From Streptomyces showdoensis (lineage in GTDB: Bacteria; Actinomycetota; Actinomycetes; Streptomycetales; Streptomycetaceae): a stretch of DNA of 64,000 nucleotides. Of the stretch, positions 2,944-25,175 are shown piece after piece (positions within the stretch are counted from its first letter, which is position 1; each line of letters starts with the position of its first letter). The position numbers were made by a program, and so were the translations under genes. Below the pieces are notes generated by a model. The model was not told the origin of the DNA. It made no database searches and worked only from the letters and a program-made list of their open reading frames with translations. The stretch is taken from contig NZ_BAAAXG010000012.1 of NCBI RefSeq assembly GCF_039535475.1, positions 186,001-250,000 of the forward strand. Reading direction: 5' to 3'.

Positions 2944-3543
2944 TCAGGCGTCCGCCGCCCAGGTCCGGCGCAGGTGGCCGAGCTCCACGGCGACGGCCTC
3001 CCGCATCAGGGTGCGGGCGTGGGCCACGGACAGGCCGTCGGTCAGCCAGCGCGTGCTCAGGCCCTCCAGGAGGGCCGTCAGCCGCTCCGCGGACGCGGTG
3101 AGGGTCGGGGCGGGGGCCGCGGGGCAGGCCTGGGCCAGCAGGGACGCGACCTCGTGCACCCAGGTGAGGCCGGCCCTGGCCAGGTCCGCGCGCAGCTCCG
3201 GCTCGAAGACCGCGCTGGCGCGCAGCTCGCCCCAGGCCGTGCTGTTCTCCCGGACCTCGGGGAGGTCCTGGAACTCCAGCAGCAGCGATCGCTCCAGCTC
3301 CTGGTGGGGGTCGAACGGCCCGTCCGTCCCCTCCGCGTCGGCGGTGTAGCGGTCGGCGCGGTCGCTGATGAACTCGAGCGTGTGGCGCAGGATGCCCGCC
3401 CGGTCCTTGAAGTGGTAGTAGATCAGCGCGGTGGACACCCCCGCCTCGGCCGCCAGTTCCTCCACCCGCAGTCCGCGCACTCCCCGCCGGGCTATCACCC
3501 GGGCGGCCCCCTCCAAGATTGCCGTTCGGCGGTCCGTGGCCAA
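2944..3543 (-). CDS. TetR-family regulator 1, paired with agmatine deiminase 1
   Basis: 199 residues, a normal TetR length. The DNA-binding domain occupies residues 1-55, with the recognition helix STALIYYHFKDRAG. The ligand domain contains HTLEFISDRADRY and a conserved block AWGELRASAVFEPELR that also occurs in the TetR proteins at 11753 and 14263, showing that the three are paralogs. The start is a TTG preceded by GAGGAGGAAG. It is divergent from the deiminase gene at 3668; the 124-base gap holds two ACTGAAnnTTCAGT operators, which it probably binds to control both genes. The inducer is unknown; agmatine or a related guanidine is inferred from context. Confidence 0.87.
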   Translation of the reverse strand: MATDRRTAILEGAARVIARRGVRGLRVEELAAEAGVSTALIYYHFKDRAGILRHTLEFISDRADRYTADAEGTDGPFDPHQELERSLLLEFQDLPEVRENSTAWGELRASAVFEPELRADLARAGLTWVHEVASLLAQACPAAPAPTLTASAERLTALLEGLSTRWLTDGLSVAHARTLMREAVAVELGHLRRTWAADA

Positions 3544-3581
3544 CTCTTCCTCCTCGTGGTCCGGACGATTGTCTCATGCTG

Positions 3582-3595
3582 ACTGAATCTTCAGT
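3582..3595. promoter_or_regulatory. TetR operator O1a
   Basis: ACTGAA-TC-TTCAGT, a perfect 6-base inverted repeat with a 2-base centre, nearer to the regulator gene. It is one of six copies of the same operator between 3.5 and 15.2 kb and lies 10 bases from O1b, so two dimers could bind side by side. Confidence 0.75.
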
Positions 3596-3602
3596 TGGCA
3601 TG

Positions 3603-3631
3603 TTGACTGAAAATTCAGTCCGGGCCAGGAT
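3603..3631 (+). promoter_or_regulatory. Promoter of deiminase 1 with embedded TetR operator O1b
   Basis: TTGACT (3603-3608), 17 bases, CAGGAT (3626-3631) fits a streptomycete housekeeping promoter. The operator ACTGAAAATTCAGT (3606-3619) starts inside the -35 hexamer, so repressor binding would block polymerase. The 17 bases TTGACTGAAAATTCAGT recur exactly at 15088-15104. Confidence 0.7.
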
Positions 3632-3667
3632 GACGGGCGTCCTCCCGTCCCTCATCAGGGGAGTCCC

Positions 3668-4831
3668 ATGAACACGCCCGTCACCTCCCGGCGCCGCCTG
3701 CTCCGGTTCGGCGCCGCCGCAGTGCCCCTCGCCGCTCTCGGGGCCGCACTGCCGACGGCCGCCCGCGCGGCCACCGCGCCGTCCGGCGCCACCCTCCGGA
3801 TGCCCGCGGAGACCGACCCGCACGTCCGCACCTTCATGGCCTGGCCCGCCCTCTCGTCGGTCTGGCCCCGGTCCCTCGGCGCGGTCCGCCGGGACATCGC
3901 CGACGTCGCGTACGCCCTCTCGCGCTTCGAGCCGGTCGTGATGCTGGCCCGCCCGAGCCAGGCCGCCGAGGCCCGCTACCAGTGCGGCAGCGGCGCCTAC
4001 TACGGCATCGAGGTCGTCGAGATCCCCAACGACGACCTGTGGATCCGGGACTTCGGCCCGACCTTCGTGGTCGCCCCCGGCGCCGTCGCGGGCGTCGACA
4101 CCAACTTCAACGGCTGGGGCAAGGCCGGCACGAAGTACGCGCAGCCCTACGCGAACGACGCCGCCGCGGCCGCGACCCTGCTCGGCCAGTACGGCGTCGA
4201 CCGCGTCCAGGCCTCCTTCGTCGGCGAGGGCGGCTCCCTGGAGACCGACGGCCAGGGCACCCTGCTCGCCACGGTCAGCTCGCTCGTCAACCCCAACCGC
4301 AACCCCGGCACGTCCCAGGACCAGGTCGAGCAGGCCATGAAGTCCGCGCTCGGCATCGACAAGGTCATCTGGGTGCCCGGCCTGGCCGGCCAGGACATCA
4401 CCGACTGCCACATCGACTGTCTGGCCCGCTTCGTCGCGCCCGGGCGGGTCATCCTGGACAAGCCGGGCTCCAAGACCGACGCGCAGTGGGTCGCCGTCTA
4501 CGAGGAGACCAAGCGGGTGCTGCAGAGCGCCACCGACGCGCAGGGCCGCCGGCTCACCGTCACCGAGCTCCCCGGCCCCGACCGCGCCGCCATCCGCCGC
4601 AAGGACGAGGACGGCTTCCTGTCCAGCTACACCAACTACTACACCGCCAACGGCGCCGTCCTGGTGCCGCAGTTCGGCGACGCCTACGCCGACGGCGTGG
4701 CCTACGCGATCCTGCAGGCCGCGTACCCCGACCGGACCGTCGTCCAGCTGAACATCGACAACATCGCGAGCGGCGGCGGGGGCATCCACTGCGCCACCCA
4801 GTCGCAGCCGGTCGTCCCGCCGGCCGTCTGA
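3668..4831 (+). CDS. Agmatine deiminase-family protein 1, Tat-exported
   Basis: 387 residues of the PF04371 family (agmatine deiminase and Porphyromonas-type peptidylarginine deiminase). Residues 8-13 (RRRLLR), the hydrophobic stretch to about 30 and AARA form a Tat signal peptide with a likely cut near residue 34. Catalytic features are intact: NDDLWIRDFGP (121-131), EGG with Glu187, His248 and Asp250 in DCHIDCLARF, and the nucleophile Cys375 in GGGGIHC. Deimination hydrolyses a guanidine to a ureido group and ammonia. GGGGAG precedes the ATG. A sensor kinase begins 5 bases after the stop, so the two may be cotranscribed. Export is atypical for a polyamine-synthesis enzyme, so the substrate may be extracellular agmatine or arginine in peptides. 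Confidence 0.85.
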   Translation: MNTPVTSRRRLLRFGAAAVPLAALGAALPTAARAATAPSGATLRMPAETDPHVRTFMAWPALSSVWPRSLGAVRRDIADVAYALSRFEPVVMLARPSQAAEARYQCGSGAYYGIEVVEIPNDDLWIRDFGPTFVVAPGAVAGVDTNFNGWGKAGTKYAQPYANDAAAAATLLGQYGVDRVQASFVGEGGSLETDGQGTLLATVSSLVNPNRNPGTSQDQVEQAMKSALGIDKVIWVPGLAGQDITDCHIDCLARFVAPGRVILDKPGSKTDAQWVAVYEETKRVLQSATDAQGRRLTVTELPGPDRAAIRRKDEDGFLSSYTNYYTANGAVLVPQFGDAYADGVAYAILQAAYPDRTVVQLNIDNIASGGGGIHCATQSQPVVPPAV

Positions 4832-9418: not shown

Positions 9419-10330
9419 TCAGGGAGCGGGTGTGGCCGCGGGCGCGTCCGCGGGGGCGTCCGGGCCGGGGCCCGTGGCGGGCGGCTCGGCCCGCATCCCC
9501 GCCACGACCACCGTGACGAGGCAGAACGCGACGATCGTCTCCGCCCAGAGGAAGGCGAGGTAGTCGAGCAGGGAGCCGATCGGCGGGGCGCCGGGGGCCG
9601 TGTTGCGGAAGGCGGCCAGGGCGAAGAGCGTGGCGGCCATCCAGCCGAGGGCCGGCCAGGTCAGGCCCTTGCGCCGGGTGACCAGGTACCAGGCGCCGAT
9701 CAGTACGGACACCGCCAGGGCCCACATCGCCACCATCATGAAGACGGCGAACACCAGGACGCTGTTGGAGCGCGCCAGCCCGACCTCGAAGACCGCGACG
9801 CCGTCGCTGTCGGAGGCGTCCACCGAGGCCGAGAACAGGGCGTCGTTGTTGGAGAGGCGCATGTGGACCGGGACCTTCTCACCGCCCTGCGTGGCACCGA
9901 ACTCCAGGGCCGTCTCGTACGCGTCGAAGGGGTAGTCGGTGATGGGGCCGCCGGTGAGGGCGACCGGCACGTCCCGGGTGGAGATCCGGCTGTGGGCCTT
10001 GAAGGTCAGATCACCCCCGGTGGAGGCCGAGGTCTGCACGACCAGGTCCTCGGCGGGGGAGATCCCGCCGGCCTCGGCGAGCTCCCCGCGCGGGGTCACC
10101 AGGACCCGCAGCACCAGCTCCCGGCCGGCGGCGTCGACGCGCTGGACGGTGGCGTCGACGTCCACCCGGTCGGGCTCCGCACCGCCCGCCGAGTACACCG
10201 TGTCCAGGGCCTGGCGTTCGCCGAACTGCAGCCACGCGCCCACGGCGACGGCCGACACCACGGCGACCAGGAGCAGCCCGGGGACCAGCGTTCTCCTGCG
10301 GGTGCGCGGTTGGCGCCGGTTCTTGGACAC
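9419..10330 (-). CDS. DUF4436 family membrane protein
   Basis: 303 residues. A basic N-terminus (RRQPRTRRRTLVPG) precedes a first helix (about 15-32), then an extracytoplasmic beta-rich domain up to about residue 180 with PITDYPFDAYETALEF, and three C-terminal hydrophobic helices (VLVFAVFMMVAMWALAVSVL and two more). The tail is Pro/Ala-rich. This arrangement is that of DUF4436 proteins, whose function is not established. The GTG start has GGAG upstream. It is followed by the strong hairpin at 9351-9395, so it is probably its own transcription unit rather than part of the retropepsin operon. Confidence 0.78.
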   Translation of the reverse strand: MSKNRRQPRTRRRTLVPGLLLVAVVSAVAVGAWLQFGERQALDTVYSAGGAEPDRVDVDATVQRVDAAGRELVLRVLVTPRGELAEAGGISPAEDLVVQTSASTGGDLTFKAHSRISTRDVPVALTGGPITDYPFDAYETALEFGATQGGEKVPVHMRLSNNDALFSASVDASDSDGVAVFEVGLARSNSVLVFAVFMMVAMWALAVSVLIGAWYLVTRRKGLTWPALGWMAATLFALAAFRNTAPGAPPIGSLLDYLAFLWAETIVAFCLVTVVVAGMRAEPPATGPGPDAPADAPAATPAP

Positions 10331-10407: not shown

Positions 10408-11565
10408 TCAGGCGGCGGGCTTGCCGGGCTGGTCGTGGGTGGAGCAGTGGATGCCGCCGCCGCCCGAGGCGATCGTGTCGATCGGGACCGGGACGACGTC
10501 CCGCTTGGGGAAGTGCTCCTGGAGGATGCTCTTCGCCCGGTTGTCGGCCTTGCGGTCGCCGAACCTGGGCATGAAGACGGCGTCGTTGGCGATGTAGAAG
10601 TTGGCGTAGGTCGACACGAAGTCGTCGCCCTCACCGGTGATCCTGTTCAGGTCGGGCTGCGGCAGGTCGATGATCTCGAAGCGCCGGCCGCGCGCGTCGG
10701 TGGCCCGGGACAGGACGGACTTCGCCTGGTCGGCGGAGCGGGACCAGGAGTCGGCGGGGGTGCCGGGGTACGCCCGGTCCAGGAGGACGACGCCGGGGGC
10801 GGTGAAGCGGACGAGGCTGTCGACGTGCGCGTCGGTGATGTCCTCGCCGCGGACGCCCGCGAGCCAGACCACCTTCTCGATGCCGAGGGTCTCCTTGAGC
10901 TCGGCCTCGATGCGGTCGCGGCTCTTGCCCCGGTTGCGGTTGTCGTTGACGATCGAGCTCTCGGTGATGAGCAGCGTGCCCTCGCCGTCGGTCTCGAAGG
11001 AGCCGCCCTCGGCCACCAGCGGCGCCTCGACCCGCGGGATCCGGTACTTCCCGAGCAGGGTCTCGCCGACCAGGGCGTCGTTGTCGTGCCGCTGCTTGTT
11101 GCCCCAGCCGTTGAAGTTGAAGTCGACGCCGGTGACGACGCCGTCCTCCTCGACGAAGACGGGCACCGTGTCGCGGGCCCACAGGTCGTCGACCTCCAGG
11201 GGGATGACCTCGACCTGGGAACCGCACGCCCGCTGGGCGGCCTTCAGCTGGTCGGGCCGGGCCATCATCACGACGGCCTCGTACTCGCCGACGGCCCGCG
11301 CGATCCGCGCGATGTCCTCGCGCACGTAGCGCAGGTCGTCCTCCCAGACCGCCTCCAGGGCCGGCCAGGACATGAAGGTGCGGGTGTGGCTCTCCCACTC
11401 GGCGCCCAGCCGGCGCCCCCCGTCCGCACCGGAGTCCGTGCCGGCGCTGCCGGCGGCGCCGACCAGGCCGGGGTCGGAGGGGCCGCAGGCCGAGACGCCG
11501 AGGACGAGTGCGCCGATGCCGGCGAAGGAACGGAGGGCGGAGCGGCGGGAGGGGAGGAAGGTCAC
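10408..11565 (-). CDS. Agmatine deiminase-family protein 2, predicted Tat lipoprotein
   Basis: 385 residues from the GTG at 11565, chosen because GGAG lies 6 bases upstream and a signal peptide follows directly. The N-terminus has twin arginines (RRSALRSF, 7-14), a hydrophobic stretch and the lipobox VSAC with Cys27, so the enzyme should be exported and lipid-anchored. The catalytic set is complete: EVDDLWARD (124-132), Glu186 in AEGG, His247 and Asp249 in AHVDSLVRF, nucleophile Cys374 in GGGGIHC. It is read leftward behind its TetR regulator, with a promoter and operator between them. The substrate, agmatine or another guanidine, is inferred only from family. Confidence 0.83.
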   Translation of the reverse strand: MTFLPSRRSALRSFAGIGALVLGVSACGPSDPGLVGAAGSAGTDSGADGGRRLGAEWESHTRTFMSWPALEAVWEDDLRYVREDIARIARAVGEYEAVVMMARPDQLKAAQRACGSQVEVIPLEVDDLWARDTVPVFVEEDGVVTGVDFNFNGWGNKQRHDNDALVGETLLGKYRIPRVEAPLVAEGGSFETDGEGTLLITESSIVNDNRNRGKSRDRIEAELKETLGIEKVVWLAGVRGEDITDAHVDSLVRFTAPGVVLLDRAYPGTPADSWSRSADQAKSVLSRATDARGRRFEIIDLPQPDLNRITGEGDDFVSTYANFYIANDAVFMPRFGDRKADNRAKSILQEHFPKRDVVPVPIDTIASGGGGIHCSTHDQPGKPAA

Positions 11566-11727: not shown

Positions 11728-11756
11728 ACTGTGACACTGACTGGAATTTCAGTCAA
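11728..11756 (-). promoter_or_regulatory. Promoter of deiminase 2 with embedded TetR operator O2
   Basis: Read on the minus strand: TTGACT (11756-11751), 17 bases, CACAGT (11733-11728). The operator ACTGGAATTTCAGT (11740-11753, plus-strand reading) again starts in the -35 hexamer, and the longer palindrome TGACTG-N6-CAGTCA spans 11738-11755. It overlaps the last codons of the TetR gene at 11753. The predicted leader to the GTG is about 155 bases. Confidence 0.65.
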
Positions 11757-12409
11757 ACGCCGGGAGAGGCGTGGGCGGCGGGGGTGACGCGGGGCGCACC
11801 GGCGGTGCGGGTGCCGCCGGAGTCATGGGCGGCGTGGGCGAGATGGGAGAGTTCCACCCCGATCGCCTCCCGCATCAGCGCGCGGGCGTGTCCCATGTGC
11901 AGGACGCCGCCGAGCCGCCGCGCGTTGAGCCCCTCGCGCAGGGCGGTCAGGCGCTCGGCCGAGGAAGCCAGCCGCTCGGGGCCCGCGGCCGGGCGGGCGA
12001 GGGCCAGCAGCTCCGTGACCTCCCGGATCCAGGCCTCGCCCGCCTTGGCCAGCGCCTCCCGGAGCCCGGGCTCGAAGATCGCGCCGGCGCGCAGCTCGCT
12101 CCAGGCGGTGCTGTCGGCGCGCACGTCCGGGAGCTCCTGGAACTCCCACAGCAAGGCGAATTCCAGCAGGCCCCGCGGGTCGGTGGGGGCCTCGGTGCCG
12201 CTCTGTCCCGCGGTGTACTGTCGTGCCCGGTCGGTCATGAACTCCAGGGTGCGTCCCAGGAGGCCGGCCCGGTCCTTGAAGTGGTAGTAGACCAGCGCGG
12301 TCGACACTCCGGCCTCGCTCGCGAGCTCGTCCACGCGGAGTCCGCGGACCCCCCGCCGGGCCAGGGTGCGGGCTGCCGCCTCCAGGATGGCCGTTCTGCG
12401 ATCCGTCAC
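11753..12409 (-). CDS. TetR-family regulator 2
   Basis: 218 residues from the GTG at 12409 (VTDRRTAILEAAARTLARRG); an upstream in-frame ATG would place the operator inside the coding region and is less likely. The recognition helix STALVYYHFKDRAG is nearly identical to those of the regulators at 2944 and 14263, and the ligand domain repeats AWSELRAGAIFEPGLR. It lies upstream of deiminase 2 on the same strand and divergent from the Ser/Thr kinase at 12520. The intergenic operator at 12456-12469 suggests it controls itself and the kinase, and the operator at its 3' end suggests it controls deiminase 2. Confidence 0.83.
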   Translation of the reverse strand: MTDRRTAILEAAARTLARRGVRGLRVDELASEAGVSTALVYYHFKDRAGLLGRTLEFMTDRARQYTAGQSGTEAPTDPRGLLEFALLWEFQELPDVRADSTAWSELRAGAIFEPGLREALAKAGEAWIREVTELLALARPAAGPERLASSAERLTALREGLNARRLGGVLHMGHARALMREAIGVELSHLAHAAHDSGGTRTAGAPRVTPAAHASPGV

Positions 12410-12452: not shown

Positions 12453-12481
12453 TTGACTGAAACTTTAGTTAGGGGCACGAT
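12453..12481 (+). promoter_or_regulatory. Promoter toward the Ser/Thr kinase with TetR operator
   Basis: TTGACT (12453-12458), 17 bases, CACGAT (12476-12481) points at the kinase gene. The operator variant ACTGAAACTTTAGT (12456-12469) sits at the same offset as at the deiminase promoters, with one arm degenerate. It lies between the divergent TetR gene and the kinase. Confidence 0.62.
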
Positions 12482-14878: not shown

Positions 14879-14897
14879 TGGTGCCTCGCCCGAAACC

Positions 14898-15142: not shown

Positions 15143-16156
15143 ATGACCGCATTCCGTATGCCCGCCGAGTGGTCCGCGCACGAGGGCTGTCTGATGGCCT
15201 GGCCCACCCGCCCCGACCTGTGGGGCAGTGTGCTGAACGACGTCAAGGAGGAGTACGCGAACGTCGCCAAGGCCATCGCCGAGTTCGAGCCGGTGACCAT
15301 GGTCGCCCCGCCCGGTCACGGCGACGACGCCCGCACCTGGTGCGGCCCGGAGATCACCGTCGTGGAGCTCCCGGTGGACGACTCCTGGTTCCGCGACTCC
15401 GCCCCGCTGTTCGTCCTCGACGCCGAGGGCCGCCGGGCCGGCGTCGACTTCCGCTTCAACGCCTGGGGCCGCAAGCACCACCCCTACGACGCCGACGACC
15501 GGATCAGCTCCCTGCTCCTCGACCACCTCGGCGTGGAGCGCATCGGCTCCGAGATGATCCTCGAAGGCGGCGCGATCACCGTCGACGGCGAGGGCACGCT
15601 GATCACGACCGAGCAGTGCCTTCTGCATCCCAACCGGAATCCCGGCATGAACCGGGACGAGATCGAGGCCGAGCTGAAATCCCGGCTGGGCGTCCGTAAG
15701 GTTGTCTGGCTTCCGTACGGTGGTCTGCTCGACACCGAGACCGACGGCCACGTGGACGGGGTGTGTGCCTTCGCCGCCCCCGGCAAGGTCGTCGTCTCCC
15801 TCCCCGAGGACCCCGCGCACCCCGACTACGCCCGGATGCGGGCCAACCGCGCGGTACTGGAGGTCACCACCGACGCACAGGGCCGCCGCCTGGAGATCGT
15901 CGACGTGCCGCAGGCCGCGTTCGTCGACGTCGCCGACGGCGAGGTCGAGGTGTCGTACCTGAACTACTACGTCGCCAACGGCGGTGTCGTCGTGCCCGTG
16001 GCCGGTCTGCCCCAGGACGACGCGGCCCTCGCGGTGATCGCCGCGGCCTACCCCGGCCGCAAGGTGGTCGGCGTGCGGGCGCTCGCGATCGCGTTCGGCG
16101 GCGGGGGAGTGCACTGCATCACGCAGCAGATCCCCGTCGCCCAGCCCCTGCCGTAA
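15143..16156 (+). CDS. aguA: Agmatine deiminase, cytosolic
   Basis: 337 residues without signal peptide, the canonical cytosolic form. It should convert agmatine to N-carbamoylputrescine and ammonia, a step of putrescine synthesis from arginine. Family motifs: MPAEWSAHEGCLMAWP at the start, PVDDSWFRDSAP (77-88), Glu141 in LEGG, TETDGHVDGV with His203 and Asp205, LNYYVANGGV, and nucleophile Cys325 in GGGGVHCITQQ. The ATG at 15143 is chosen because the conserved N-terminus begins there and AGAGAGAG lies upstream. No N-carbamoylputrescine amidase or transcarbamylase gene is in the window. A 10-bp hairpin separates it from the ABC importer genes that follow. Confidence 0.9.
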   Translation: MTAFRMPAEWSAHEGCLMAWPTRPDLWGSVLNDVKEEYANVAKAIAEFEPVTMVAPPGHGDDARTWCGPEITVVELPVDDSWFRDSAPLFVLDAEGRRAGVDFRFNAWGRKHHPYDADDRISSLLLDHLGVERIGSEMILEGGAITVDGEGTLITTEQCLLHPNRNPGMNRDEIEAELKSRLGVRKVVWLPYGGLLDTETDGHVDGVCAFAAPGKVVVSLPEDPAHPDYARMRANRAVLEVTTDAQGRRLEIVDVPQAAFVDVADGEVEVSYLNYYVANGGVVVPVAGLPQDDAALAVIAAAYPGRKVVGVRALAIAFGGGGVHCITQQIPVAQPLP

Positions 16157-16254: not shown

Positions 16255-17928
16255 ATGATCACACCCGTACTGCGCGCCAGCAGACGCGCGGGCACCCGAC
16301 GCGGCCGTGCGTCCGGCCGCCCGCTCGCGGCCGCGGCCGTCCTCCTGACGGCCACGGCCCTGGTCGCGGCCTGCGCGGGACCGCCCAAGGGCGGAGGCGA
16401 CGCGGGCGACGTGTCCCTGTCGAAGACCACGCCCGCCGCGAAGGGCGAGATCGACTCCTTCACCTGGGCCGTCTACGCCGAGCCGCCCACGCTCGACTAC
16501 ACGGTGGCGTTCGACTACCCGCAGAACACCATCCTGTCCAACGTGTGCGAGAGCCTGATGCGCTGGACCCCGGGCCTCACCCTCGAGCCGGGCCTCGCCC
16601 GCAAGGCCTCGAACCCGGACCCCACCACCTGGGTCTACGACCTGCGCGCCGGGGTGAGGTTCCACGACGGCGGGACGATGACCGCCGACGACGTGGTCTA
16701 CAGCCTCGGCCGGCAGACGGACCCCGACAACGCCGCCGCCTGGGCCCAGAACTTTCAGAACGTCGCCACCGTCCGGAAGACCGGACCGCTCCAGGTCACC
16801 GTCAAGCTGAAGAAGCCCGACTCCCAGTTCCCCCAGTACATGGCCACCGCCGCCGGGGTCGTGGCGTCCAAGGCCGGGGTCGAGAAGGCCGGCAAGGACT
16901 ACGGCACCTCCGGCGGCCTCGCCTGCACCGGTCCGTTCGAGCTCGGCACCTGGAACAAGGGACAGTCCGTCGAGCTCGACCGCTTCGACGGCTACTGGGG
17001 CCGCAAGGCCAAGTCCGGCAAGGTCGTCTTCCGCTTCATGACCGATCCCTCGGCCCGCACCAACGCCCTGCTCAGCGGCGAGGCCGACGGCGGCTACCTC
17101 ATCCCGACCGAGAGCTACGGCCGGCTCAAGGGCAGCGGCGTCGGCACCCTCTACTTCGGCGAGGGACTCAGCACGGTCAACGTCAACATCACGAACATGA
17201 AGGGCCCGCTCGGCGACGTCCGGGTCCGCCGTGCGCTCTCCCTCGCGCTCGACCGCTCCGGCTTCGTCGAGGCCGGCCTCGGCGGCGCGGGCACCGTCAC
17301 CCACTCGCTCACCACCCGGGCCGCCTGGGCCGCGGGTTCACCGGAGACCCGGAAGGCCGCGCTCGACGGCCTGCCGCCCACGGCACCCGACCTGGCGAAG
17401 GCCAAGGCGCTCATCAAGGAAGCCGGCGCCACCGGCAGGACCCTCACCGTCGCCACCAGCTCGATCGGCCAGGACGTCTCGCTGCTCGCCACCGCCGTCC
17501 AGTCGGCCGGCGCCCAGATCGGCCTCGACATCCGGCTCAAGACCATCGCGCCGAACGCGTTCACCGCCCTGTTCACCGATCCCAAGGCGCGCGAGGGCAT
17601 CGACATGTTCCCGCTCACCTACTACGACTCGATCACCGACCCGCTGGACCTGCTCCAGAGCTTCAAGACCGGCGCGTACCTGAACTTCGCCGGCTACAGC
17701 GACAGGGCGTACGACGAGGGCGTCGACCGGGCCACCGCCGAGTACGACCCCGACAAGCGCCTGACGATCGAGACGCAGCTGCAGAAGCACGCCGCCGAGC
17801 GGCTGCTGTGGATCCCGGTGGCCGAGTGGCCCACCGCCGTCTTCCTCAACAAGCGGATCACCGGCGCCCCCACCACCATCGCGTACATGTACTACCCGTG
17901 GGCCGCCGATGTGGGGGCCGCACGGTGA
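16255..17928 (+). CDS. ABC importer substrate-binding lipoprotein, oligopeptide type (SBP_bac_5)
   Basis: 557 residues. A long basic N-region, hydrophobic stretch and lipobox LVAAC give a lipoprotein anchored outside the membrane. The mature part has the cluster C binding-protein pattern: DSFTWAVYAEPPTLDYT, VYDLRAGVRFHDGGTMTADDVVYSL, GTGPF-like CTGPFELG, and VRRALSLALDRSGFV. Such proteins bind peptides, opines, nickel or polyamine-like cations. The ATG at 16255 follows GGAAAGAGAG. It starts a five-gene operon with two permeases and two ATPases in which every junction overlaps. Placed right after the cytosolic deiminase, the importer may bring in its guanidino substrate or deiminated peptides; this is inference. 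Confidence 0.88.
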   Translation: MITPVLRASRRAGTRRGRASGRPLAAAAVLLTATALVAACAGPPKGGGDAGDVSLSKTTPAAKGEIDSFTWAVYAEPPTLDYTVAFDYPQNTILSNVCESLMRWTPGLTLEPGLARKASNPDPTTWVYDLRAGVRFHDGGTMTADDVVYSLGRQTDPDNAAAWAQNFQNVATVRKTGPLQVTVKLKKPDSQFPQYMATAAGVVASKAGVEKAGKDYGTSGGLACTGPFELGTWNKGQSVELDRFDGYWGRKAKSGKVVFRFMTDPSARTNALLSGEADGGYLIPTESYGRLKGSGVGTLYFGEGLSTVNVNITNMKGPLGDVRVRRALSLALDRSGFVEAGLGGAGTVTHSLTTRAAWAAGSPETRKAALDGLPPTAPDLAKAKALIKEAGATGRTLTVATSSIGQDVSLLATAVQSAGAQIGLDIRLKTIAPNAFTALFTDPKAREGIDMFPLTYYDSITDPLDLLQSFKTGAYLNFAGYSDRAYDEGVDRATAEYDPDKRLTIETQLQKHAAERLLWIPVAEWPTAVFLNKRITGAPTTIAYMYYPWAADVGAAR

Positions 17929-18884
17929 GCTTCACGAGATTCGCCGTCCGACGGCTCGCCGAGATGGCCGCCACGCTGCTGTGCGCGTCGTTCGTCGTCT
18001 TCGGCGCGATGTACCTGGCGCCGGGCAGCCCCGCGAGCTTCCTGCTCTCGGGCCGCTCGGCCTCGCCCGAGGCGCTCGCCGCGATCAACGCCCAGTACCA
18101 CCTGGACGACCCCTTCCTGGTCCGGTACCTGCGCTGGCTCGGCGACATGCTCCAGGGCGACTTCGGGCGGTCCATCACCTACCGGACCGACGTCTCCCGG
18201 CTGCTGGCCGACCGCCTCCCCACCACCCTGCTGCTCGTCCTGATGGCGCTGCTCGTGGTCGTGGCCGTCGGCCTGGTGCTCGGCCGGGTGGCCGCCGTGC
18301 GCGGCGGCGCCACCGACTCCGCCGTGCTCGTCACCACCACCTTCGCCGTGGGCACCCCGTCGTTCGTCGCGGCCGTCCTGCTCCAGGCGCTGTTCGCCGT
18401 CAAGCTGGGCTGGTTCCCCAGCGGCGGCGCCGGCGAGGGCTTCCTCGACCAGGTCTGGCACCTGACCCTCCCCGCGATCGCCCTCGCCCTCTACCTGATC
18501 GGCATGCTGGCCCGGGTCACCCGCTCGGCGATGCTCGAAGCCCTCGACAGCGAGCACGTCACCGTGGCCCGCAGCCGGGGCGTGCCCGAGCGCCAGGTCA
18601 TCCGCCGCCATGTGTTCCGCAACTCGCTGGGCACCGTCCTGACCACCGGCGGCCTGATCGTCTCGACCCTGCTGGTCTGCACGATCCTGGTCGAGACCGC
18701 GTTCAGCATCGGCGGCATCGGCCAGCTCCTGGAACTGTCCACCTCCACCAAGGACTTCCCGACCGTCCAGGCCATCTCCCTGATCATCGTCGCCCTGTTC
18801 ATGATCGTGAACCTCATCGTCGACCTCCTGCTCCCCCTGGTCGACCCGCGGATCACCCTCGGATCGAGGAGGTCCTCCGCATGA
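17925..18884 (+). CDS. ABC importer permease (DppB type)
   Basis: 319 residues with six hydrophobic segments. N-terminal FAVRRLAEMAATLLCASFVVFGAMYLAPG and the GRS/GRSITYRTDVSRLLADRLPTTLLLV segment are typical of DppB/OppB proteins. The EAA loop lies in EALDSEHVTVARSRGVPERQVIRRH (about residues 206-230) and contacts the ATPases. The GTG start overlaps the binding-protein stop by four bases and its own stop overlaps the next permease (ATGA). Confidence 0.9.
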   Translation: MSFTRFAVRRLAEMAATLLCASFVVFGAMYLAPGSPASFLLSGRSASPEALAAINAQYHLDDPFLVRYLRWLGDMLQGDFGRSITYRTDVSRLLADRLPTTLLLVLMALLVVVAVGLVLGRVAAVRGGATDSAVLVTTTFAVGTPSFVAAVLLQALFAVKLGWFPSGGAGEGFLDQVWHLTLPAIALALYLIGMLARVTRSAMLEALDSEHVTVARSRGVPERQVIRRHVFRNSLGTVLTTGGLIVSTLLVCTILVETAFSIGGIGQLLELSTSTKDFPTVQAISLIIVALFMIVNLIVDLLLPLVDPRITLGSRRSSA

Positions 18885-19735
18885 CCGCCGTCCTCACCCG
18901 CCGGCCGGGCCTCGCCCGGATCCGTACGGCCGGCTCGCCGCTGCACCTGGTCTGTCTGGGCTTCGTCCTGCTGGTCGTGGCCGCGGCGCTGTTCGCCCCG
19001 CTCCTCGTGCCGTACGACCCGAACGCCGTCGACCTCGGCAACGCGCTCGCGGGACCCTCGCCCGAGCACCTGCTCGGCGTGGACGCGGCGGGTCGCGACA
19101 CCCTCTCCCGGCTGCTCCTGGGAGCCCGCACCTCGCTGCTCGGCCCGCTCGGGGTGGTCCTCTTCTCGACCGTCGCCGGCGTCGTCGTCGGCATGGCCGC
19201 GGCCTGGCGGGGCGGCTGGCTGGACTCGCTGCTCTCGCGCAGCACCGAGCTGGTCTTCGCCTTCCCCGGCATGCTGCTGGCGATCCTCATCATCTCGATC
19301 TACGGCGAGGGGCTGCTGGCCCCGGTCCTCGCCCTCGCCGTCGCCTACCTGCCCTACGTCAGCCGGCTGACCCGCTCCCTGGTCCTCGCCGAACGCGCCC
19401 GCCCCTACGTCAGCGCCTACCAGGTCCAGGGCCACTCGGCGCTCCAGATCTGCCTGCGCCACGTGCTGCCCAACATCGCCCCCGTCGTCCTCGCCCAGTC
19501 CACCATCAACTTCGGCTACGCCCTCATGGACCTCGCCGGCCTCTCCTTCCTCGGACTCGGCGTCCCGGCGCTCACCCCCGACTGGGGCCGCATGGTCTTC
19601 GACGGCCAGACCGCCGTCCAGCACGGCTACCCGCTGTCCGCGATCCTGCCCTGCGCCCTCATCGTGCTGACGGTGGTCGCGTTCAACGTGGTCGGAGAGC
19701 GCTGGGCCGACCGCGTCGCCAGGAGAGACCGATGA
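18881..19735 (+). CDS. ABC importer permease (DppC type)
   Basis: 284 residues with the N-terminal domain typical of DppC proteins: a first helix, then LLVPYDPNAVDLGNALAGPSPEHLLGVDAAGRDTLSRLL, where GVDAAGRD is the family signature. The EAA loop reads SLVLAERARPYVSAYQVQGHS. It pairs with the preceding DppB-type permease to form the membrane channel. It starts within the ATGA overlap with that gene and its stop overlaps the ATPase start at 19732. Confidence 0.9.
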   Translation: MTAVLTRRPGLARIRTAGSPLHLVCLGFVLLVVAAALFAPLLVPYDPNAVDLGNALAGPSPEHLLGVDAAGRDTLSRLLLGARTSLLGPLGVVLFSTVAGVVVGMAAAWRGGWLDSLLSRSTELVFAFPGMLLAILIISIYGEGLLAPVLALAVAYLPYVSRLTRSLVLAERARPYVSAYQVQGHSALQICLRHVLPNIAPVVLAQSTINFGYALMDLAGLSFLGLGVPALTPDWGRMVFDGQTAVQHGYPLSAILPCALIVLTVVAFNVVGERWADRVARRDR

Positions 19736-20725
19736 ACACGACCGACCGGCCCGCACTCGACGTCCGAGGGCTCCGGATCACCCTGCCCGGCACGGCCCGC
19801 CCCGTCCTCGACGGGATCGACCTCACCGTCGGGGCCGGCGAGACCGTCGCGCTCGTCGGCGAGTCCGGCTCGGGCAAGAGCCTCACCTCGCGCAGCGCCC
19901 TGCGCCTGCTGCCCCCCCGGCGCCGTCACCGAGGGCTCCGTCCTCGTCGACGGCGAGGACGTCCTCACCCTGGACGCCGACCGGCTGCGCACGCTGCGCA
20001 CCGGCACCGCGGCCATGATCTTCCAGGACCCGCGGGCGGCCATCAACCCGCTCCGGCGCATCGGCGACTTCCTCACCGAGAGCGTCCGCCTGACGAGGAC
20101 GATGACGGCGGACCGGGCCCGGGCCCGCGCCGTCGAACTCCTGGAGGCGGTGGGCCTGGACGACACCGCCCTGGCCAAGTACCCCGGCCAGGTCTCCGGC
20201 GGCATGCTCCAGCGCGTCATGATCGCCGCGGCCCTGATGGGCGACCCGGCCCTGCTGCTCGCCGACGAGCCCACCACCGCCCTGGACGTCACCACCCAGG
20301 CGGAGGTCGTCGCCCTCCTCGGCCGGCTGCGCGAGCGCTTCGGCACCGGGCTGCTGTTCGTCACCCACGACCTGGACCTCGCCGCCGCCATCAGCGACCG
20401 GGTGTACGTGATGTACGCCGGGCGGATCGCCGAGAGCGGGCCCGCGCGGGAGATCTTCGCGCACCCCCGCCACCCCTACACGGCCGCCCTCCTGGCCTCC
20501 ACCCCCCGGATGGAGGGCCCGCGCGGCCGGCTCGCCGCCATCGACGGGCAGCCCCCGGACCTCCGGGCTGAGCTGCCGGGCTGCGCCTTCGCCGCCCGCT
20601 GCCCGCTGGCGACCGAGGTGTGCGACCTGCGGGCGCCCGCGCCGCTCTCCGCCCCTGGCCGGCCCGCGCACCGGGCCGCCTGCCACCACAGCGACCGGCT
20701 CGAAGGGAGCGCAGTCGATGTCTGA
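19732..20725 (+). pseudogene. ABC importer ATPase (DppD type), frameshifted at a C7 run
   Basis: The ATG at 19732 overlaps the permease stop. The first frame encodes the start of an ATPase with Walker A GESGSGKS, but it leaves the family at a run of seven C (19912-19918). Removing one C restores LLPPGAVTEGSVLVDGEDV and joins the frame that holds the Q-loop FQDPRAAINPL, the signature VSGGMLQRV, Walker B LLLADEP and the switch HDLDLAAAI. The repaired protein would be 330 residues, normal for DppD with its C-terminal CAFAARCPLA Cys motif. As written, the gene is split and the operon would lack one ATPase. A sequencing error in the homopolymer is as likely as a true mutation. Confidence 0.85.
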
Positions 20726-21560
20726 GAACCCCGGTGGGCCCGACGAGCCGGACGGTCCGGACCGTCCCGGGCCCGTGCTGGCCGTCGAGGGCCTGCGCCG
20801 CAGCTACGGAGCCGTCAAGGCCGTGGACGACGTGTCGTTCACGCTGCCGCACGGCGGATCACTGGGCATCGTGGGGGAGTCGGGCTCCGGCAAGACCACC
20901 ACGGCGCGGATCGTCGTCGGTCTGGAGTACGCGGACGAGGGCGAGGTGCACGTCCGCGGCCGGTCCCGGACCGAACGGGGCCGCGGCCGGGCGCGGCGGC
21001 TGGCCCGGGCCCGCGAGGTCCAGATGGTCTTCCAGGACCCCTACTCCTCGCTCGATCCGCGGACCAGCGTCGAGGCGGCCCTGCGCGAGACGCTGAAGCT
21101 GCACTTCCCGGAGCGGGACCACGCCCGGCGGGTGCGGGAGCTGCTCGACCAGGTCGGGCTGGGGACGCGCGCGGCCGACGCGCTGCCGCGCCGGCTGTCC
21201 GGCGGGCAGCGGCAGCGGGTGGCCATCGCGCGGGCCCTGGCCGTGGAACCGGCGGTGCTCGTGCTGGACGAGGCGGTGGCGGCGCTGGACGTGTCCGTGC
21301 AGGCGCAGATCCTCAACCTGCTCGCCGACATCCGGGAGGAGACCTCGATCGGCTACCTCTTCATCACCCACGACCTCGGCGTGGTCCGCTGCGTCACCGA
21401 CGAGGTCATCGTGATGCGGCACGGAGCCGTCGTCGAGGCCGGGCGCACCGAGGAGGTGCTGGCCGACCCGCAGCACCCGTACACCCGGCTCCTGCTGGAG
21501 TCCGTGCCGCGCCCGGGCTGGGACCCGGAGCGGATCGCGGCCGCCCGCCGGGCGCTGTAG
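20718..21560 (+). CDS. ABC importer ATPase (DppF type)
   Basis: 280 residues. Walker A GESGSGKTTTA (about residues 53-63), Q-loop MVFQDPYSSLDPR, signature RLSGGQRQRVAIARAL, Walker B VLVLDEAVAALD (Glu replaced context: DEAV instead of the more common DEPT), and switch His in FITHDLGVVR. It overlaps the previous gene by eight bases and is the last gene of the importer operon. The protein is shorter than many DppF proteins because it lacks most of the C-terminal oligopeptide extension. It converges on the TetR gene at 21582 with a 21-base gap. Confidence 0.88.
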   Translation: MSENPGGPDEPDGPDRPGPVLAVEGLRRSYGAVKAVDDVSFTLPHGGSLGIVGESGSGKTTTARIVVGLEYADEGEVHVRGRSRTERGRGRARRLARAREVQMVFQDPYSSLDPRTSVEAALRETLKLHFPERDHARRVRELLDQVGLGTRAADALPRRLSGGQRQRVAIARALAVEPAVLVLDEAVAALDVSVQAQILNLLADIREETSIGYLFITHDLGVVRCVTDEVIVMRHGAVVEAGRTEEVLADPQHPYTRLLLESVPRPGWDPERIAAARRAL

Positions 21561-21581: not shown

Positions 21582-22226
21582 TCAGACGCCGGCCGCGAGG
21601 GTGCGGACCAGGGTCCGCAGCACCGCCCCGTCCTCGATCCCGGCCTCCAGCGACTCCACCGCCGCCAGTCCGTCGACGGCCGCGGCGACCGCCTCGCCGA
21701 GCGGGCGGGGGTCGATCCCGCCGCCGCGCTCGTCGGCCAGCACCTGGAAGAGGGCGACGAAACAGGCGCGCCAGCGCCGGTACTCCGCCGCCAGGGACTC
21801 CCGTACCCGCTCGTCGTTCAGGGCGTGCCAGTGCAGCGCGGAGTGGAGGTGGGCGAGGTCCGTGCTCTCGGGCCCGTCGAGCAGGGCGAGGACGCGTTCC
21901 GCGCGCTCGGCGAAGGTGCCGGGGGCGGCGACGGCCTCCTCCAGCGGCAGCACCCACTCGGGGCGGATGTCCTCGACGACGGCCAGCACGAGGTCGGTGC
22001 GGTCCTGGAAGTGGTAGTGGCACATCCCGTGCGAAACCCCGCACAGCGCGGCCACGTTGCGGGTGGTGAACCGCTCGCCCAGCTCGCCGGCCAGCAGGGT
22101 GCGGGCGGCCGCGATCAGGCGCGCACGGGTCTGCTCGCCCTTCGCCGAGGCCCGCGACCGCGGTGTCGCGGGCCTCGGGGGCGGGGGAGCGGTGAGGTTC
22201 CGGGAGTCCTTCGCGGATGCGGCCAT
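21582..22226 (-). CDS. TetR-family regulator 4, divergent from deiminase 4
   Basis: 214 residues with an extended basic N-terminus (about 30 residues). The DNA-binding domain reads GEQTRARLIAAARTLLAGELGERFTTRNVAALCGVSHGMCHYHFQDRTDL. The recognition helix (SHGMCHYHF) differs from that of regulators 1-3, matching the fact that the operator in its divergent gap is also different. It probably represses deiminase 4 through the 18-base palindrome at 22348-22365. Ligand unknown. Confidence 0.87.
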   Translation of the reverse strand: MAASAKDSRNLTAPPPPRPATPRSRASAKGEQTRARLIAAARTLLAGELGERFTTRNVAALCGVSHGMCHYHFQDRTDLVLAVVEDIRPEWVLPLEEAVAAPGTFAERAERVLALLDGPESTDLAHLHSALHWHALNDERVRESLAAEYRRWRACFVALFQVLADERGGGIDPRPLGEAVAAAVDGLAAVESLEAGIEDGAVLRTLVRTLAAGV

Positions 22227-22346: not shown

Positions 22347-22375
22347 TTGACCGAGCGCTCGGTCAGTTCTACGTT
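22347..22375 (+). promoter_or_regulatory. Promoter of deiminase 4 with an 18-bp perfect palindrome
   Basis: TTGACC (22347-22352), 17 bases, TACGTT (22370-22375) is a good housekeeping promoter. The perfect palindrome TGACCGAGCGCTCGGTCA (22348-22365) covers the -35 and most of the spacer and is a typical TetR operator. It differs from the ACTGAA-type operators but occupies the same position. Confidence 0.8.
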
Positions 22376-22425
22376 TCCGAAGCAACCGCGGGCGTTCCGC
22401 GGGGAGTTGACAGCTGGAGGCAGCA

Positions 22426-23586
22426 ATGAACGATCACGCCGAGAGCGGCCCGCGCGGCGCCGGAGGCCTGGGCAGGCGCCGGTTCCTGAAGGCCGCCGGA
22501 CTCGCGGCCGTCGGCACGGCCCTGGCCGGCACCGAGGCCTACGCGGGCGTCCGCTCGCTCGCCGCCCGGGCCGCGGCCGGCACGTTCGCCGTCCCGATCG
22601 AGGACGTCCGCCACACCCGTACCTGGATGGCCTTCCCCGACAGCACCTCGATCTGGGGCAGCAAGCTGAGCGGGGTCCAGGCGGACATCGCGCTGATCGC
22701 CCGCACCATCGCGAAGTACGAGCCGGTCATCGTGTGCGCCAACTCGGGCAGCGCCGCCAAGGCCCGCTCGCTGTGCGGCTCCACGGTCACCGTCATCAGC
22801 TCCATCCCCGTCGACGACTGCTGGATGCGCGACACCGGCCCGGTCTTCCGCACCGACGGGGCCGGCGGCCTCGACGCGGTCGGCCTCAACTTCAACGGGT
22901 GGGGCAACCGGCAGACCCACGCCAGGGACGAGCTCGTCGCCGAGCGGATCGCCGCCTACGTCGGGGTCCCCTTCACCTACGCCGACCTCGTCGGCGAGGG
23001 CGGCGCCATCGAACAGGACGGCGCCGGCACGCTGATGGCCACCCGCAGCAGCATCGTGAACAACAACCGCAACCCCGGGATGACGGAGCGCCAGATCGAG
23101 GCGGCCATGTGTGCCGCCTACGGCGCCTCCAAGGTCATCTGGTTCGACGGCGTCCGCAACCAGGACATCACCGACGACCACGTCGACGCGACCTCGCGCT
23201 TCCTCGCCCCCGGCAAGGCGCTGGTGCAGATGCCGCTGTCCACCGACACCGACGTCTACGCGAAGGACGCCCGCCAGCAGTACCAGATCCTGTCCTCGGC
23301 CACGACGGCCGGCGGCGCCCCGATGGCCGTCAGCAAGCTCCAGGGCCCCGACTACTACAAGATCCGCTCCACCAACAAGGACTTCCTCGCCTCCTACGCC
23401 AACTACTACGTCTGCAACGGGGCGATCATCTCCGGCCAGTTCGGCGACACCGCGGCCGACACCGCCGCCAAGGCCACCCTCGCCCGGCTCTACCCGGGCC
23501 GTGTGATCGAGCAGCTCAACATCGACCGGCTCGGCACCGGCGGCGGCGGCATCCACTGCGTCACCCAGCAGCAGCCCGTCCGCTGA
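22426..23586 (+). CDS. Agmatine deiminase-family protein 4, Tat-exported
   Basis: 386 residues. A textbook Tat motif GRRRFLKAAGL (16-26) is followed by a hydrophobic stretch and a likely cut around residue 40-50. Catalytic residues are intact: SIPVDDCWMRDTGP (126-139), Glu191 in GEGG, His252 and Asp254 in DHVDATSRF, Cys378 in GGGGIHC. The segment NRNPGMTERQIE is shared with the other deiminases. GGAGG lies upstream of the ATG. Regulated by the divergent TetR 4 by inference. It is followed by a 13-bp hairpin and then an APC transporter on the same strand. Substrate specificity (agmatine against peptidyl-arginine) cannot be told from the sequence. Confidence 0.85.
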   Translation: MNDHAESGPRGAGGLGRRRFLKAAGLAAVGTALAGTEAYAGVRSLAARAAAGTFAVPIEDVRHTRTWMAFPDSTSIWGSKLSGVQADIALIARTIAKYEPVIVCANSGSAAKARSLCGSTVTVISSIPVDDCWMRDTGPVFRTDGAGGLDAVGLNFNGWGNRQTHARDELVAERIAAYVGVPFTYADLVGEGGAIEQDGAGTLMATRSSIVNNNRNPGMTERQIEAAMCAAYGASKVIWFDGVRNQDITDDHVDATSRFLAPGKALVQMPLSTDTDVYAKDARQQYQILSSATTAGGAPMAVSKLQGPDYYKIRSTNKDFLASYANYYVCNGAIISGQFGDTAADTAAKATLARLYPGRVIEQLNIDRLGTGGGGIHCVTQQQPVR

Positions 23587-23593
23587 CGGACCC

Positions 23594-23639
23594 GCGTCCG
23601 GCCGGGATCGGGCGAACCGCTCCCGCCCCGGCCGGACGC
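23594..23639 (+). terminator. Hairpin after deiminase 4
   Basis: GCGTCCGGCCGGG (23594-23606) and CCCGGCCGGACGC (23627-23639) are 13-bp perfect arms around a 20-base loop, starting 8 bases after the stop. It may end or attenuate transcription before the APC transporter gene. Confidence 0.65.
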
Positions 23640-23678
23640 CACCCCTCTCGTCCCGCACAGCCGAGGAAAGGCGCACAG

Positions 23679-25175
23679 GTGAGCGACAAGTCAGGCAACA
23701 ACGGCGGGGGCGGCCTCCGGGCCGGCGGCCTCGGCACCTTCGACTCCGTGGTCATGGCGGTCGCGGGCTGCGGCCCCGCGTACACCGTGGTGGCCCTGAT
23801 CCCCGCCCTCGTCGCGGCGGTCGGCCTCGCCGCCCCCGCCGCGCTGCTCTACGGCGCGGTCCCGATGGTCGGCATCGCCCTCGCCTTCCGGTACCTGGGG
23901 CGGCTGGACGTCAGCTCCGGCGCCACCTACTCCTGGGCCGCCAGGGCGCTGCACCCCGCCCTCGGCTTCCTCGGCGGGTGGGCCGTGGTCGCCGCGACCA
24001 CGCTCTTCGTCATCGCCTCCACGACCCCCACCGGCGCGGCCACCCTGTCCCTGCTGGGCGCGCGCCCGGCGGAGGACGGCCTCCTCGCCACGGCGGTCGG
24101 CCTCGGCCTGTTCCTCCTGACGGCCGCCCTCACGGGCTCGGGCGTACGGATCGCCGCCGGGGTACGCGCCGTCGCCGTCGCCGCCCAACTGGCCGTCCTG
24201 CTCGTGGTGGCCGGGGCGGCGCTGACCCGGGACGCGCACGCCGCGTCCTTCTCCCTCTCGTGGTTCGGCCTCGGCCACTTCGACGCCGGCCACTCCTTCA
24301 CCGCCGGCGCGCTGATCGTCGGAGCCCTCTACTGGGGCTGGGACGTGACGGCCAACCTCAGCGAGGAGACCCGCGGCGGCCGCGGCGGCTCGGGCCTCGG
24401 CGGACTGATCGGCCTCCTGGTCGTCGCCGCCACCCTGATCACCCTGACCGTCAGCGCGAACGTGCTCCTCGGCCCCGACGCCACGACCTGGGCGGACGGC
24501 GGCTTCCTGCGCCGGCTCGGCGAGGCCGCCTGGCCGGGCACCGGCGGGAACCTGCTCGCCCTCGCCGTACCGCTCGCCATGGTCGCGACGCTGGAGACCA
24601 CCCTCCTCCAGGCCACCCGCACCCTGTTCGCCATGGGCCGCGACCGCACCGTCCCCGCCTTCCTCGGCCGCGTCCATCCCCGGCGCAGGACCCCCGTGGC
24701 CGCCACCCTGGCCGTCACCGCGGTCACCGTGACGAGCCTGGCCCTGGTCGCGCTCACCGACCGCGGGGTCGCCCTCCTCGACGACGCCCTCATGGGCATC
24801 GGCCTGCTGATCGCCTTCTACTACGCGCTGGCCGGCCTCGCCGTCGCCGTGGCCTGCCGCGGCGTGCTCCTCACCTCGCCCGGCCGCTTCGTCCTGCTGG
24901 GACTGTGGCCGCTCCTCGGCACGGCCTTCAACGTCTGGATCCTCGAAGCCTCGGTCCGCACGCTCACCGCCACCCAGCTCGCCATCGGCCTCGGCGCGCT
25001 GGCGACCGGCCTCGTCCCCCTGGGCACGGCGTGGTTCCAGGGCGGGCGGTCCTACTTCCGCCCCCGGCCGCTCGGCCCGTACGGCACGGGCACCGCCGAG
25101 GACCGCCTCACCGAACCGCTCCCGGCGCCCGGCCGGGCCGACGGCCGGCGCGACGGGCTCCTCTCGGACTTCTGA
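23679..25175 (+). CDS. APC-superfamily amino acid/polyamine transporter
   Basis: 498 residues, about 12 hydrophobic segments. The first helix region reads FDSVVMAVAGCGPAYTVVALIP, and the helix 6 region GALYWGWDVTANLSEETRGG is the typical substrate-binding unwound helix of APC proteins, often with a Trp-Asp pair in polyamine or amino acid exchangers. GTG start with GAGGAAAG upstream. It lies 92 bases after deiminase 4 on the same strand and may be cotranscribed despite the hairpin. A plausible role is uptake or exchange of agmatine, arginine or citrulline-like products, inferred from position only. Confidence 0.85.
   Translation: MSDKSGNNGGGGLRAGGLGTFDSVVMAVAGCGPAYTVVALIPALVAAVGLAAPAALLYGAVPMVGIALAFRYLGRLDVSSGATYSWAARALHPALGFLGGWAVVAATTLFVIASTTPTGAATLSLLGARPAEDGLLATAVGLGLFLLTAALTGSGVRIAAGVRAVAVAAQLAVLLVVAGAALTRDAHAASFSLSWFGLGHFDAGHSFTAGALIVGALYWGWDVTANLSEETRGGRGGSGLGGLIGLLVVAATLITLTVSANVLLGPDATTWADGGFLRRLGEAAWPGTGGNLLALAVPLAMVATLETTLLQATRTLFAMGRDRTVPAFLGRVHPRRRTPVAATLAVTAVTVTSLALVALTDRGVALLDDALMGIGLLIAFYYALAGLAVAVACRGVLLTSPGRFVLLGLWPLLGTAFNVWILEASVRTLTATQLAIGLGALATGLVPLGTAWFQGGRSYFRPRPLGPYGTGTAEDRLTEPLPAPGRADGRRDGLLSDF

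Follow-up and report, generated by a model that had tools for sequence, protein, structure and literature searches.

In Streptomyces showdoensis, four genes for deiminases of the PF04371 family, here called PAD-A, PAD-B, PAD-C and PAD-D (at 3668, 10408, 15143 and 22426), lie within 20 kb of one another on a 64,000-nucleotide stretch of contig NZ_BAAAXG010000012.1 (G000:C12:186001-250000, hereafter the window). An earlier note, made from the sequence alone, had singled out these four as intact enzymes, each with a TetR gene beside it. Both statements hold: all four genes are open across the full Pfam domain, and every one adjoins a TetR gene. The genome (8.50 Mb in 29 contigs) has six PF04371 genes in total, and the two outside the island are found on contig C28 (the 'core' copy) and on contig C2 (a B-like copy). 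The features of the island are listed below in window coordinates; labels beginning with L denote other loci used for comparison.

2944..3543, minus strand: TetR1 (TetR_N and TetR_C_6 by Pfam), divergent from PAD-A, of one family with TetR2 and TetR3
3582..3595: candidate operator palindrome, no mismatches to ACTGAANNTTCAGT
3606..3619: candidate operator palindrome, no mismatches to ACTGAANNTTCAGT
3668..4831, plus strand: PAD-A, PF04371 deiminase with a Tat-type (twin-arginine translocation) signal peptide (Pfam, AlphaFold model)
9419..10330, minus strand: DUF4436 membrane protein, a recurring island neighbour (also in L070, L072, L075 and L079)
10408..11565, minus strand: PAD-B, PF04371 deiminase with a Tat lipoprotein-type signal (RR...GVSAC)
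11740..11753: candidate operator palindrome 5' of PAD-B, one mismatch
11753..12406, minus strand: TetR2, start uncertain, reading frame open up to 12478
12456..12469: candidate operator palindrome between TetR2 and the kinase gene, one mismatch
12520..14193, plus strand: serine/threonine protein kinase, a recurring island neighbour
14263..14838, plus strand: TetR3
14901..14914: operator-like site, two mismatches; its counterpart in L069 precedes ureAB'
14928..15084: 157 bp, a probable deletion scar; L069 has 2.79 kb with ureAB'-ureC' at this place
15091..15104: candidate operator palindrome 5' of PAD-C, no mismatches
15143..16156, plus strand: PAD-C, PF04371 deiminase without a signal, Glu at the agmatine-amine position
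16255..17928, plus strand: SBP_bac_5 substrate-binding protein of the importer
17925..18884, plus strand: ABC permease 1 of the importer
18881..19735, plus strand: ABC permease 2 of the importer
19732..20725, plus strand: OppD-like ATPase of the importer, in two reading frames in the assembly
20718..21560, plus strand: OppF-like ATPase of the importer
21582..22226, minus strand: TetR4, outside the TetR1-3 family (25% identity to TetR1)
22347..22365: candidate operator of another type, the palindrome TTGACCGAGCGCTCGGTCA, in the gap from TetR4 to PAD-D
22426..23586, plus strand: PAD-D, PF04371 deiminase with a Tat-type signal
23679..25175, plus strand: APC-family amino acid permease

Related regulators and a shared candidate operator

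TetR1, TetR2 and TetR3 are pairwise 66, 69 and 56% identical over 187-189 residues, with TetR1 and TetR3 at 69%, and the near-identity of their recognition helices, already remarked upon in the earlier note, extends through the helix-turn-helix stretch VSTAL[IV]YY[HY]FKDRAG. The best match to TetR1 elsewhere in the genome, outside the island, reaches 29%. Two palindromes, first noticed by reading the sequence, lie in the gap between TetR1 and PAD-A. When up to two mismatches are allowed, ACTGAANNTTCAGT occurs at six sites in the window, compared with 0.22 expected from shuffles: two between TetR1 and PAD-A, one before PAD-B, one before TetR2, and two between TetR3 and PAD-C. A longer pattern gave 12 strand-matches in the 8.5 Mb genome, ten of them on these six island sites and two elsewhere (with two mismatches); a reversed-pattern control gave three matches genome-wide. 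In the 517 kb made up by the window and 26 loci from relatives, loci that were chosen for holding TetR relatives and are not a random sample, there are 59 sites with at most one mismatch, compared with none in any of five mononucleotide shuffles. Over 27 loci the consensus extends to TTGACTGAANNTTCAGTCAA, a palindrome found near PAD-A/TetR1, PAD-B, TetR2 and PAD-C and almost confined to the island. The arrangement expected of an AguR-type regulon, a TetR gene beside a deiminase gene and a palindrome in the promoter, is thus present, with predicted binding. TetR4 and PAD-D form a separate case, having another regulator and another palindrome.

Among 101 genomes of the genus, relatives of TetR1 (E <= 1e-25) occur in 23, including this one, for a total of 40 proteins. 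A PF04371 gene lies within 3 kb of 35 of these 40, and an operator-like site lies within 500 bp of the start in 27. Gene order in the island differs between relatives, and the number of PF04371 genes ranges from none (two genomes) to nine per genome in the 22 genomes counted. With a shared candidate operator and conservation beyond this strain, the idea of a dedicated system stands, and we are highly confident that the island is a co-regulated deiminase system. In two loci the TetR relative is adjoined by what appears by eye to be a glyoxylate carboligase-like protein (L066 9692-11449 and L086 9866-11623); L086 shows no deiminase within the stretch examined.

Descent, export signals and pockets of the deiminases

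The deiminase tree and site counts cover 57 proteins, one of 58 having been excluded as a fragment (<200 aa). For the site counts, proteins were grouped by nearest reference, and six B-type rows were separated by hand after the tree. The tree splits cytosolic enzymes (PAD-C and the core type, 24 rows) from exported types (A, B and D, 33 rows) with support of 100/98. Support for the grouping of PAD-A with PAD-B is moderate (85/68), and TetR1 and TetR2 share a group (96/92). PAD-C is sister to the core enzymes and so probably gained its regulator in a separate event. The relatives of PAD-A that score best come from named Streptomyces.

The earlier note proposed that a regulator-enzyme module had been duplicated. 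This fits PAD-A and PAD-B with TetR1 and TetR2 at best, since PAD-A and PAD-C are deeply split and TetR4/PAD-D is a case apart. We rejected simple module duplication for A to C: the enzymes diverge far more deeply than the regulators, and TetR-deiminase partners differ among species. Because PAD-A and PAD-C are only 45% identical, compared with 69% for TetR1 and TetR3, the TetR family seems to have arisen after the enzymes had diverged, and it probably came to control enzymes that were already distinct. A co-evolved system had been deemed unlikely should enzymes and regulators branch in unrelated places and the island be confined to this strain; the enzymes do branch apart, yet the island is conserved beyond it.

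A Tat-type signal motif is present in 28 of 34 exported-type proteins and in none of 24 cytosolic-type proteins. Among the 20 B-type proteins, 16 have the Tat-type signal and 14 a lipobox; PAD-B itself probably starts at 11565 rather than at 11727, which gives it the Tat lipoprotein-type signal. On this motif PAD-A, PAD-B and PAD-D are predicted to be exported and PAD-C is not. An extracellular function, which had been preferred for the island as a whole, therefore suits the first three and does not extend to PAD-C, a signal-less member of the cytosolic clade in which the acid at position 220 is retained.

The guanidine-binding and catalytic residues (Asp94, His224, Asp226, Cys366, Trp91 and Trp125 of the Medicago enzyme MtAIH) are kept in every group of the 57 rows, the exceptions being gaps in incomplete rows and one Cys-to-Ala change in a divergent B-type relative. 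The groups part at position 220 (Asp220 in MtAIH), where, as PMC6447857 describes for the Medicago enzyme, an acid binds the amine of agmatine. This place is taken by Asp or Glu in the solved enzymes from plant, Enterococcus and Streptococcus sources, and by Glu in all ten C-type proteins. Of the 33 exported-type rows, the 32 with a letter at this position all have Ile (31) or Val (1), and all 14 core enzymes have Gly. The amine-holding acid expected of an agmatine deiminase is thus present in PAD-C and missing from PAD-A, PAD-B, PAD-D and the core enzyme. At position 230 every cytosolic row (24 of 24) has Ala and every exported row (32 of 32) has Arg. PAD-C, judged by its residues, looks like an agmatine deiminase, while the exported PAD-A, PAD-B and PAD-D look like deiminases for a non-agmatine compound, because Ile or Val replaces the amine-anchoring acid and a new Arg is conserved. 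An AlphaFold model of PAD-A (pLDDT 91.4) has plant and bacterial agmatine deiminases as its nearest folds.

Two further B-like genes may be mentioned. The sixth deiminase of the genome (B-like, Tat lipoprotein type) is divergent from a penicillin-amidase-family gene (L032 8823-12663), and the island operator was not found on its contig. In a relative, a B-like deiminase with an internal TAG (G004:C2:6498669-6499652) is a possible pseudogene.

A urease-like partner in relatives and its absence here

In relatives, PAD-C is accompanied by a UreA-UreB fusion and a UreC protein (Pfam PF00547, PF00699 and PF00449), which we call UreAB' and UreC' (together UreABC'). In several of them the pair lies between TetR3 and PAD-C or nearby, by the same operator, and a second copy sits at a core locus beside a conserved deiminase. 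UreC' homologues of at least 78% identity occur in 60 of the 101 genomes, other UreC matches being 46-50% identical. A PF04371 gene adjoined UreC' in all 30 loci first examined (four island copies and 26 core loci), compared with none within about 5 kb of 12 canonical urease loci, one of which (G013) is uninformative, as its genome holds no PF04371 gene. The core locus comprises ureAB', ureC', a deiminase gene, a TetR gene and, usually, a divergent NCS1 permease gene. In 80 loci from named Streptomyces, the best 80 of 571 relatives, we found the deiminase in 80, UreAB' in 79, the core TetR in 78, the permease in 60, an MFS transporter in 17 and a TetR1 relative in none. Across the 101 genomes, the core deiminase and UreC' occur together in 58, UreC' alone in two, the deiminase alone in nine and neither in 32; shared ancestry inflates these co-occurrence and pairing counts. 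Two of the nine deiminase-only genomes (G039 and G042) have UreAB' at a contig end, so their UreC' may be hidden by the assembly.

UreC' differs in its pocket from canonical ureases. In 87 aligned rows the nickel ligands are kept (Lys217 in 86), as are His219, Asp221, His320, Arg336 and Asp360, in the numbering of the Klebsiella enzyme. The flap Cys of the urease VCHH motif is replaced by Val in 84 rows and by Ala in three, Ala363 is Gly in all 87, and the substrate loop (GGGTGP...TPGPW) has 18 residues in all 87, compared with 22 in 12 of 12 canonical proteins. UreC' lacks both the flap motif and the loop of canonical ureases, and it scores below the cut-off of the equivalog model TIGR01792 (636 vs 680 bits).

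Beyond the genus, a class-wide search of 296 genomes found matches (E <= 1e-165) in 38, of which 19 lie outside Streptomyces, one (G474) being canonical-like. Among 14 non-Streptomyces UreC' loci, five have a PF04371 neighbour (L267, L268, L269, L275/L283 and L288), and the other nine have none in the stretch examined. The loop deletion is present in all 11 distant loci (L278-L288), and the flap Cys is kept in one (L285). Polyamine-type importer genes (Pot families) adjoin UreC' in L279, L282 and L285, and by likeness only in L281; the PotA proteins of L279 and L285 exceed the TIGR01187 cut-off, and the PotD-like proteins fall below theirs. A PF07969 amidohydrolase lies near UreAB'-UreC' in six non-Streptomyces loci (L280, L281, L282, L285, L286 and L287). 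Taken together, these neighbourhoods suggest that the putative substrate is a polyamine derivative of ureido or guanidino type.

The window itself has no ureAB'-ureC'. Two segments of it, 14897-14927 and 15085-15400, each have a counterpart in L069, where the 2.79 kb between them holds the two genes, compared with a spacing of 157 bp here, and the core locus shows the same pattern of missing ureAB'-ureC' (L239 vs L240). The one UreC match in this genome is canonical-like; another genome, G015, also lacks UreC' at both loci. Because the deiminase-UreC' pair is so widely spread, we infer losses here rather than gains elsewhere.

The earlier note also held that the polyamine route is incomplete, with no carbamoylputrescine-processing gene present. 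This is right in that no amidohydrolase of AguB grade was found, and needs correcting in that a CN-hydrolase gene (C12:181772-182581) is present some 7 kb upstream of PAD-A, beyond the window by 3.4 kb. Its product is the most AguB-like protein of the genome, at 262 bits for a 410-bit AguB cut-off. A complete AguBA route was considered and rejected, as none of the five genomes searched, this one included, has a CN-hydrolase above that cut-off. In G054 a CN-hydrolase gene stands between PAD-C and the importer. The studied strain must either rely on a different amidohydrolase for the last step or lack that step.

Among other neighbours, the kinase has relatives in the islands L070, L072, L078, L079, L080 and L085, and an operator-like site precedes the window copy. 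An ATP-grasp protein is encoded beside a 7TM-transglutaminase-type membrane protein within the island (window 7203-9340), unmatched in the 26 relative loci. Genes for the CN-hydrolase and for aminotransferase-like, dihydropyrimidinase-like and LLM-like proteins and an NCS1 permease follow in a row (L033 13740-19001, immediately left of the window, with window 521-2026), of which Pfam covered only the first and the last; the row borders the island and is probably a cluster for degrading pyrimidines or hydantoins.

A proposed salvage regulon, its alternatives and its meaning

On balance, and by a modest degree of confidence, we favour the view that the island is an inducible regulon salvaging nitrogen from guanidino compounds, with the work divided between the exterior and the interior of the cell. 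By analogy with AguR, repression by TetR1-3 would be lifted on binding of a ligand of guanidino or polyamine type. PAD-A, PAD-B and PAD-D would release ammonia outside the cell from non-agmatine guanidino compounds. The gene for PAD-C is the first of a row that continues with those of a peptide-type importer; the importer may take in an agmatine-like substrate or product, and PAD-C would deiminate the imported substrate to a ureido compound. In relatives, UreABC' (a CN-hydrolase in one genome) would then remove the carbamoyl group; a ureido product was probably what UreABC' hydrolysed.

For UreABC' itself we offer a more tentative proposal, one we regard as possible and somewhat doubtful: that it is not a urease for urea, and that it hydrolyses the ureido product of the deiminase (N-carbamoylputrescine or a relative) to amine, ammonia and CO2, replacing the CN-hydrolase AguB, with the exported, changed-pocket deiminases feeding the route and the studied strain having shed UreABC' at both loci.

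Several observations weigh against these readings. The proposed regulon, its substrates, ligand and expression included, is drawn from sequence, and the palindrome was picked by eye, its support being its distribution. Of the 40 TetR relatives, 13 lack an operator-like site in the 500 bp about their start and five lack a deiminase within 3 kb, and the family is absent at our threshold from 78 of the 101 genomes, which makes the island an accessory trait. None of the 26 core loci has the operator, and the core uses another TetR, so that the two do not form a single regulon with each other. The rule for Tat signals was revised after a first version missed the D-type proteins (0 of 8), and the B-type proteins of L067, L068 and L071 have no signal. 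Position 230 was located by alignment rather than in three dimensions. All six deiminases fall short of the NCBIfam AguA equivalog cut-off (TIGR03380, 381.8 bits), at 230-347 bits (A 282, B 262, C 347, D 230, core 312, C2 copy 258), and because the core deiminase has Gly at position 220, the core locus may act on a non-agmatine compound. UreAB' scores above the urease models NF009671, TIGR00193 and TIGR00192, and UreC' above the broad urease alpha subfamily model NF009686 (744 vs 354 bits). Finally, the OppD-like ATPase gene is broken at about 19900-19912, judged against an intact relative in L075, which may reflect a sequencing error or a true break.

These urease model matches, together with the tight pairing with a urease-family enzyme, would suit a different scheme, in which the deiminases turn free or simple guanidines into urea or substituted ureas (free guanidine would yield urea) and UreABC' acts as a urease on the product. 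We think this unlikely, since UreC' lacks the flap Cys throughout, has the shortened pocket loop and the A363G change, and since a normal urease seems to be present in most such genomes, so that a second would be unneeded for urea. The same pocket differences count against the idea that the system makes extracellular ammonia to raise pH or as a volatile signal, its substrate being incidental. Several exported deiminases and, in relatives, a urease-like protein at the same operator would indeed all release ammonia. However, the gene row includes an importer and a signal-less deiminase, and one or more additional UreC matches, part of which may be a second UreC', occur in 59 of the 60 genomes with UreC', leaving this idea a rather slim chance.

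The exported enzymes could instead resemble PPAD, the peptidylarginine deiminase of Porphyromonas after which PF04371 is named, and citrullinate secreted or foreign proteins for signalling or interaction rather than nutrition. Their export signals would fit, and the loss of the amine-binding acid with the gain of a conserved Arg would suit a carboxylate-bearing substrate. Yet they are closer to agmatine deiminases in sequence (PDB E 1.5e-65 vs 1.2e-7) and in fold (TM-score of the PAD-A model 0.89-0.90 to plant agmatine deiminases vs 0.76-0.77 to PPAD), and at 385-387 aa PAD-A, PAD-B and PAD-D end 2-6 residues from the Pfam domain and have no C-terminal Ig-like domain. Membership of the peptidylarginine deiminases was set aside on these grounds, and we judge a PPAD-like role improbable. 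Inactivation of competitors' guanidino-bearing antibiotics would likewise agree with export, TetR regulation and patchy spread in the genus (23/101), and seems very improbable: the import operon recurs, and no recurring resistance or biosynthetic gene was noticed in the 26 neighbourhoods, such genes not having been sought individually.

The proposed salvage regulon has its closest known counterparts in Pseudomonas aeruginosa, and these are precedents for regulation and export. There AguR leaves the promoter of AguBA once agmatine binds, and strain PA14 has a second, accessory agmatine operon, agu2ABCA' (PMC4287709); among the Tat substrates that PMC6085387 lists as identified by experiment is Agu2A'. 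The likeness to AguR-AguBA, a TetR-family repressor over an agmatine deiminase gene, is one of family and arrangement, as far as that source describes the system. The island differs in having three related TetRs, several deiminases, one common palindrome and no AguB-grade amidohydrolase. With Agu2A' it shares the twin-arginine signal, here a motif only, and it differs from agu2ABCA' in three signal-bearing types (one a lipoprotein), the SBP_bac_5 importer and its own TetR family, while its Streptomyces relatives also carry the urease-like protein. PPAD shares the Pfam family, export and the catalytic Asp/His/Asp/Cys, and is farther from the island enzymes than agmatine deiminases are; it has an Ig-like domain, as described in PMC4893104, and the island enzymes have none. 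Its specificity rests with Arg152 and Arg154, which grip a C-terminal carboxylate.

From gene numbers and gene order, we infer that the core locus corresponds to the Streptomyces cluster SCO5525-5526. The likeness is UreAB-UreC without accessory genes. Such an accessory-less ure(AB)C cluster is noted under these numbers in PMC2492869, and PMC3293853 terms it urea-utilising and lists SCO5527 among arginine decarboxylase pathway homologues; the numbering conflicts with PMC4991794, which assigns SCO5526-SCO5524 to nrdABS. Relative to these accounts, to the extent that they were available, the present analysis adds the constant pairing with PF04371 deiminases, the changes in the active site and the presence of another copy in the TetR island. 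Among the matches listed from open-licence PMC, no title or abstract opening concerned exported Streptomyces deiminases or a deiminase-urease pair, and the role of UreABC' is the part that would be new.

In the Streptomyces literature, accessory-less urease genes are called urea-utilising and PF04371 genes agmatine deiminases, and their pairing makes neither name safe. Should ureido products prove to be what UreABC' acts on, a second substrate would be added to an enzyme class credited with only one, and a step so far missing from the salvage of polyamines or guanidines by actinobacteria could be tested directly. The exported deiminases would offer a clean case for asking which guanidino compounds soil bacteria process outside the cell.

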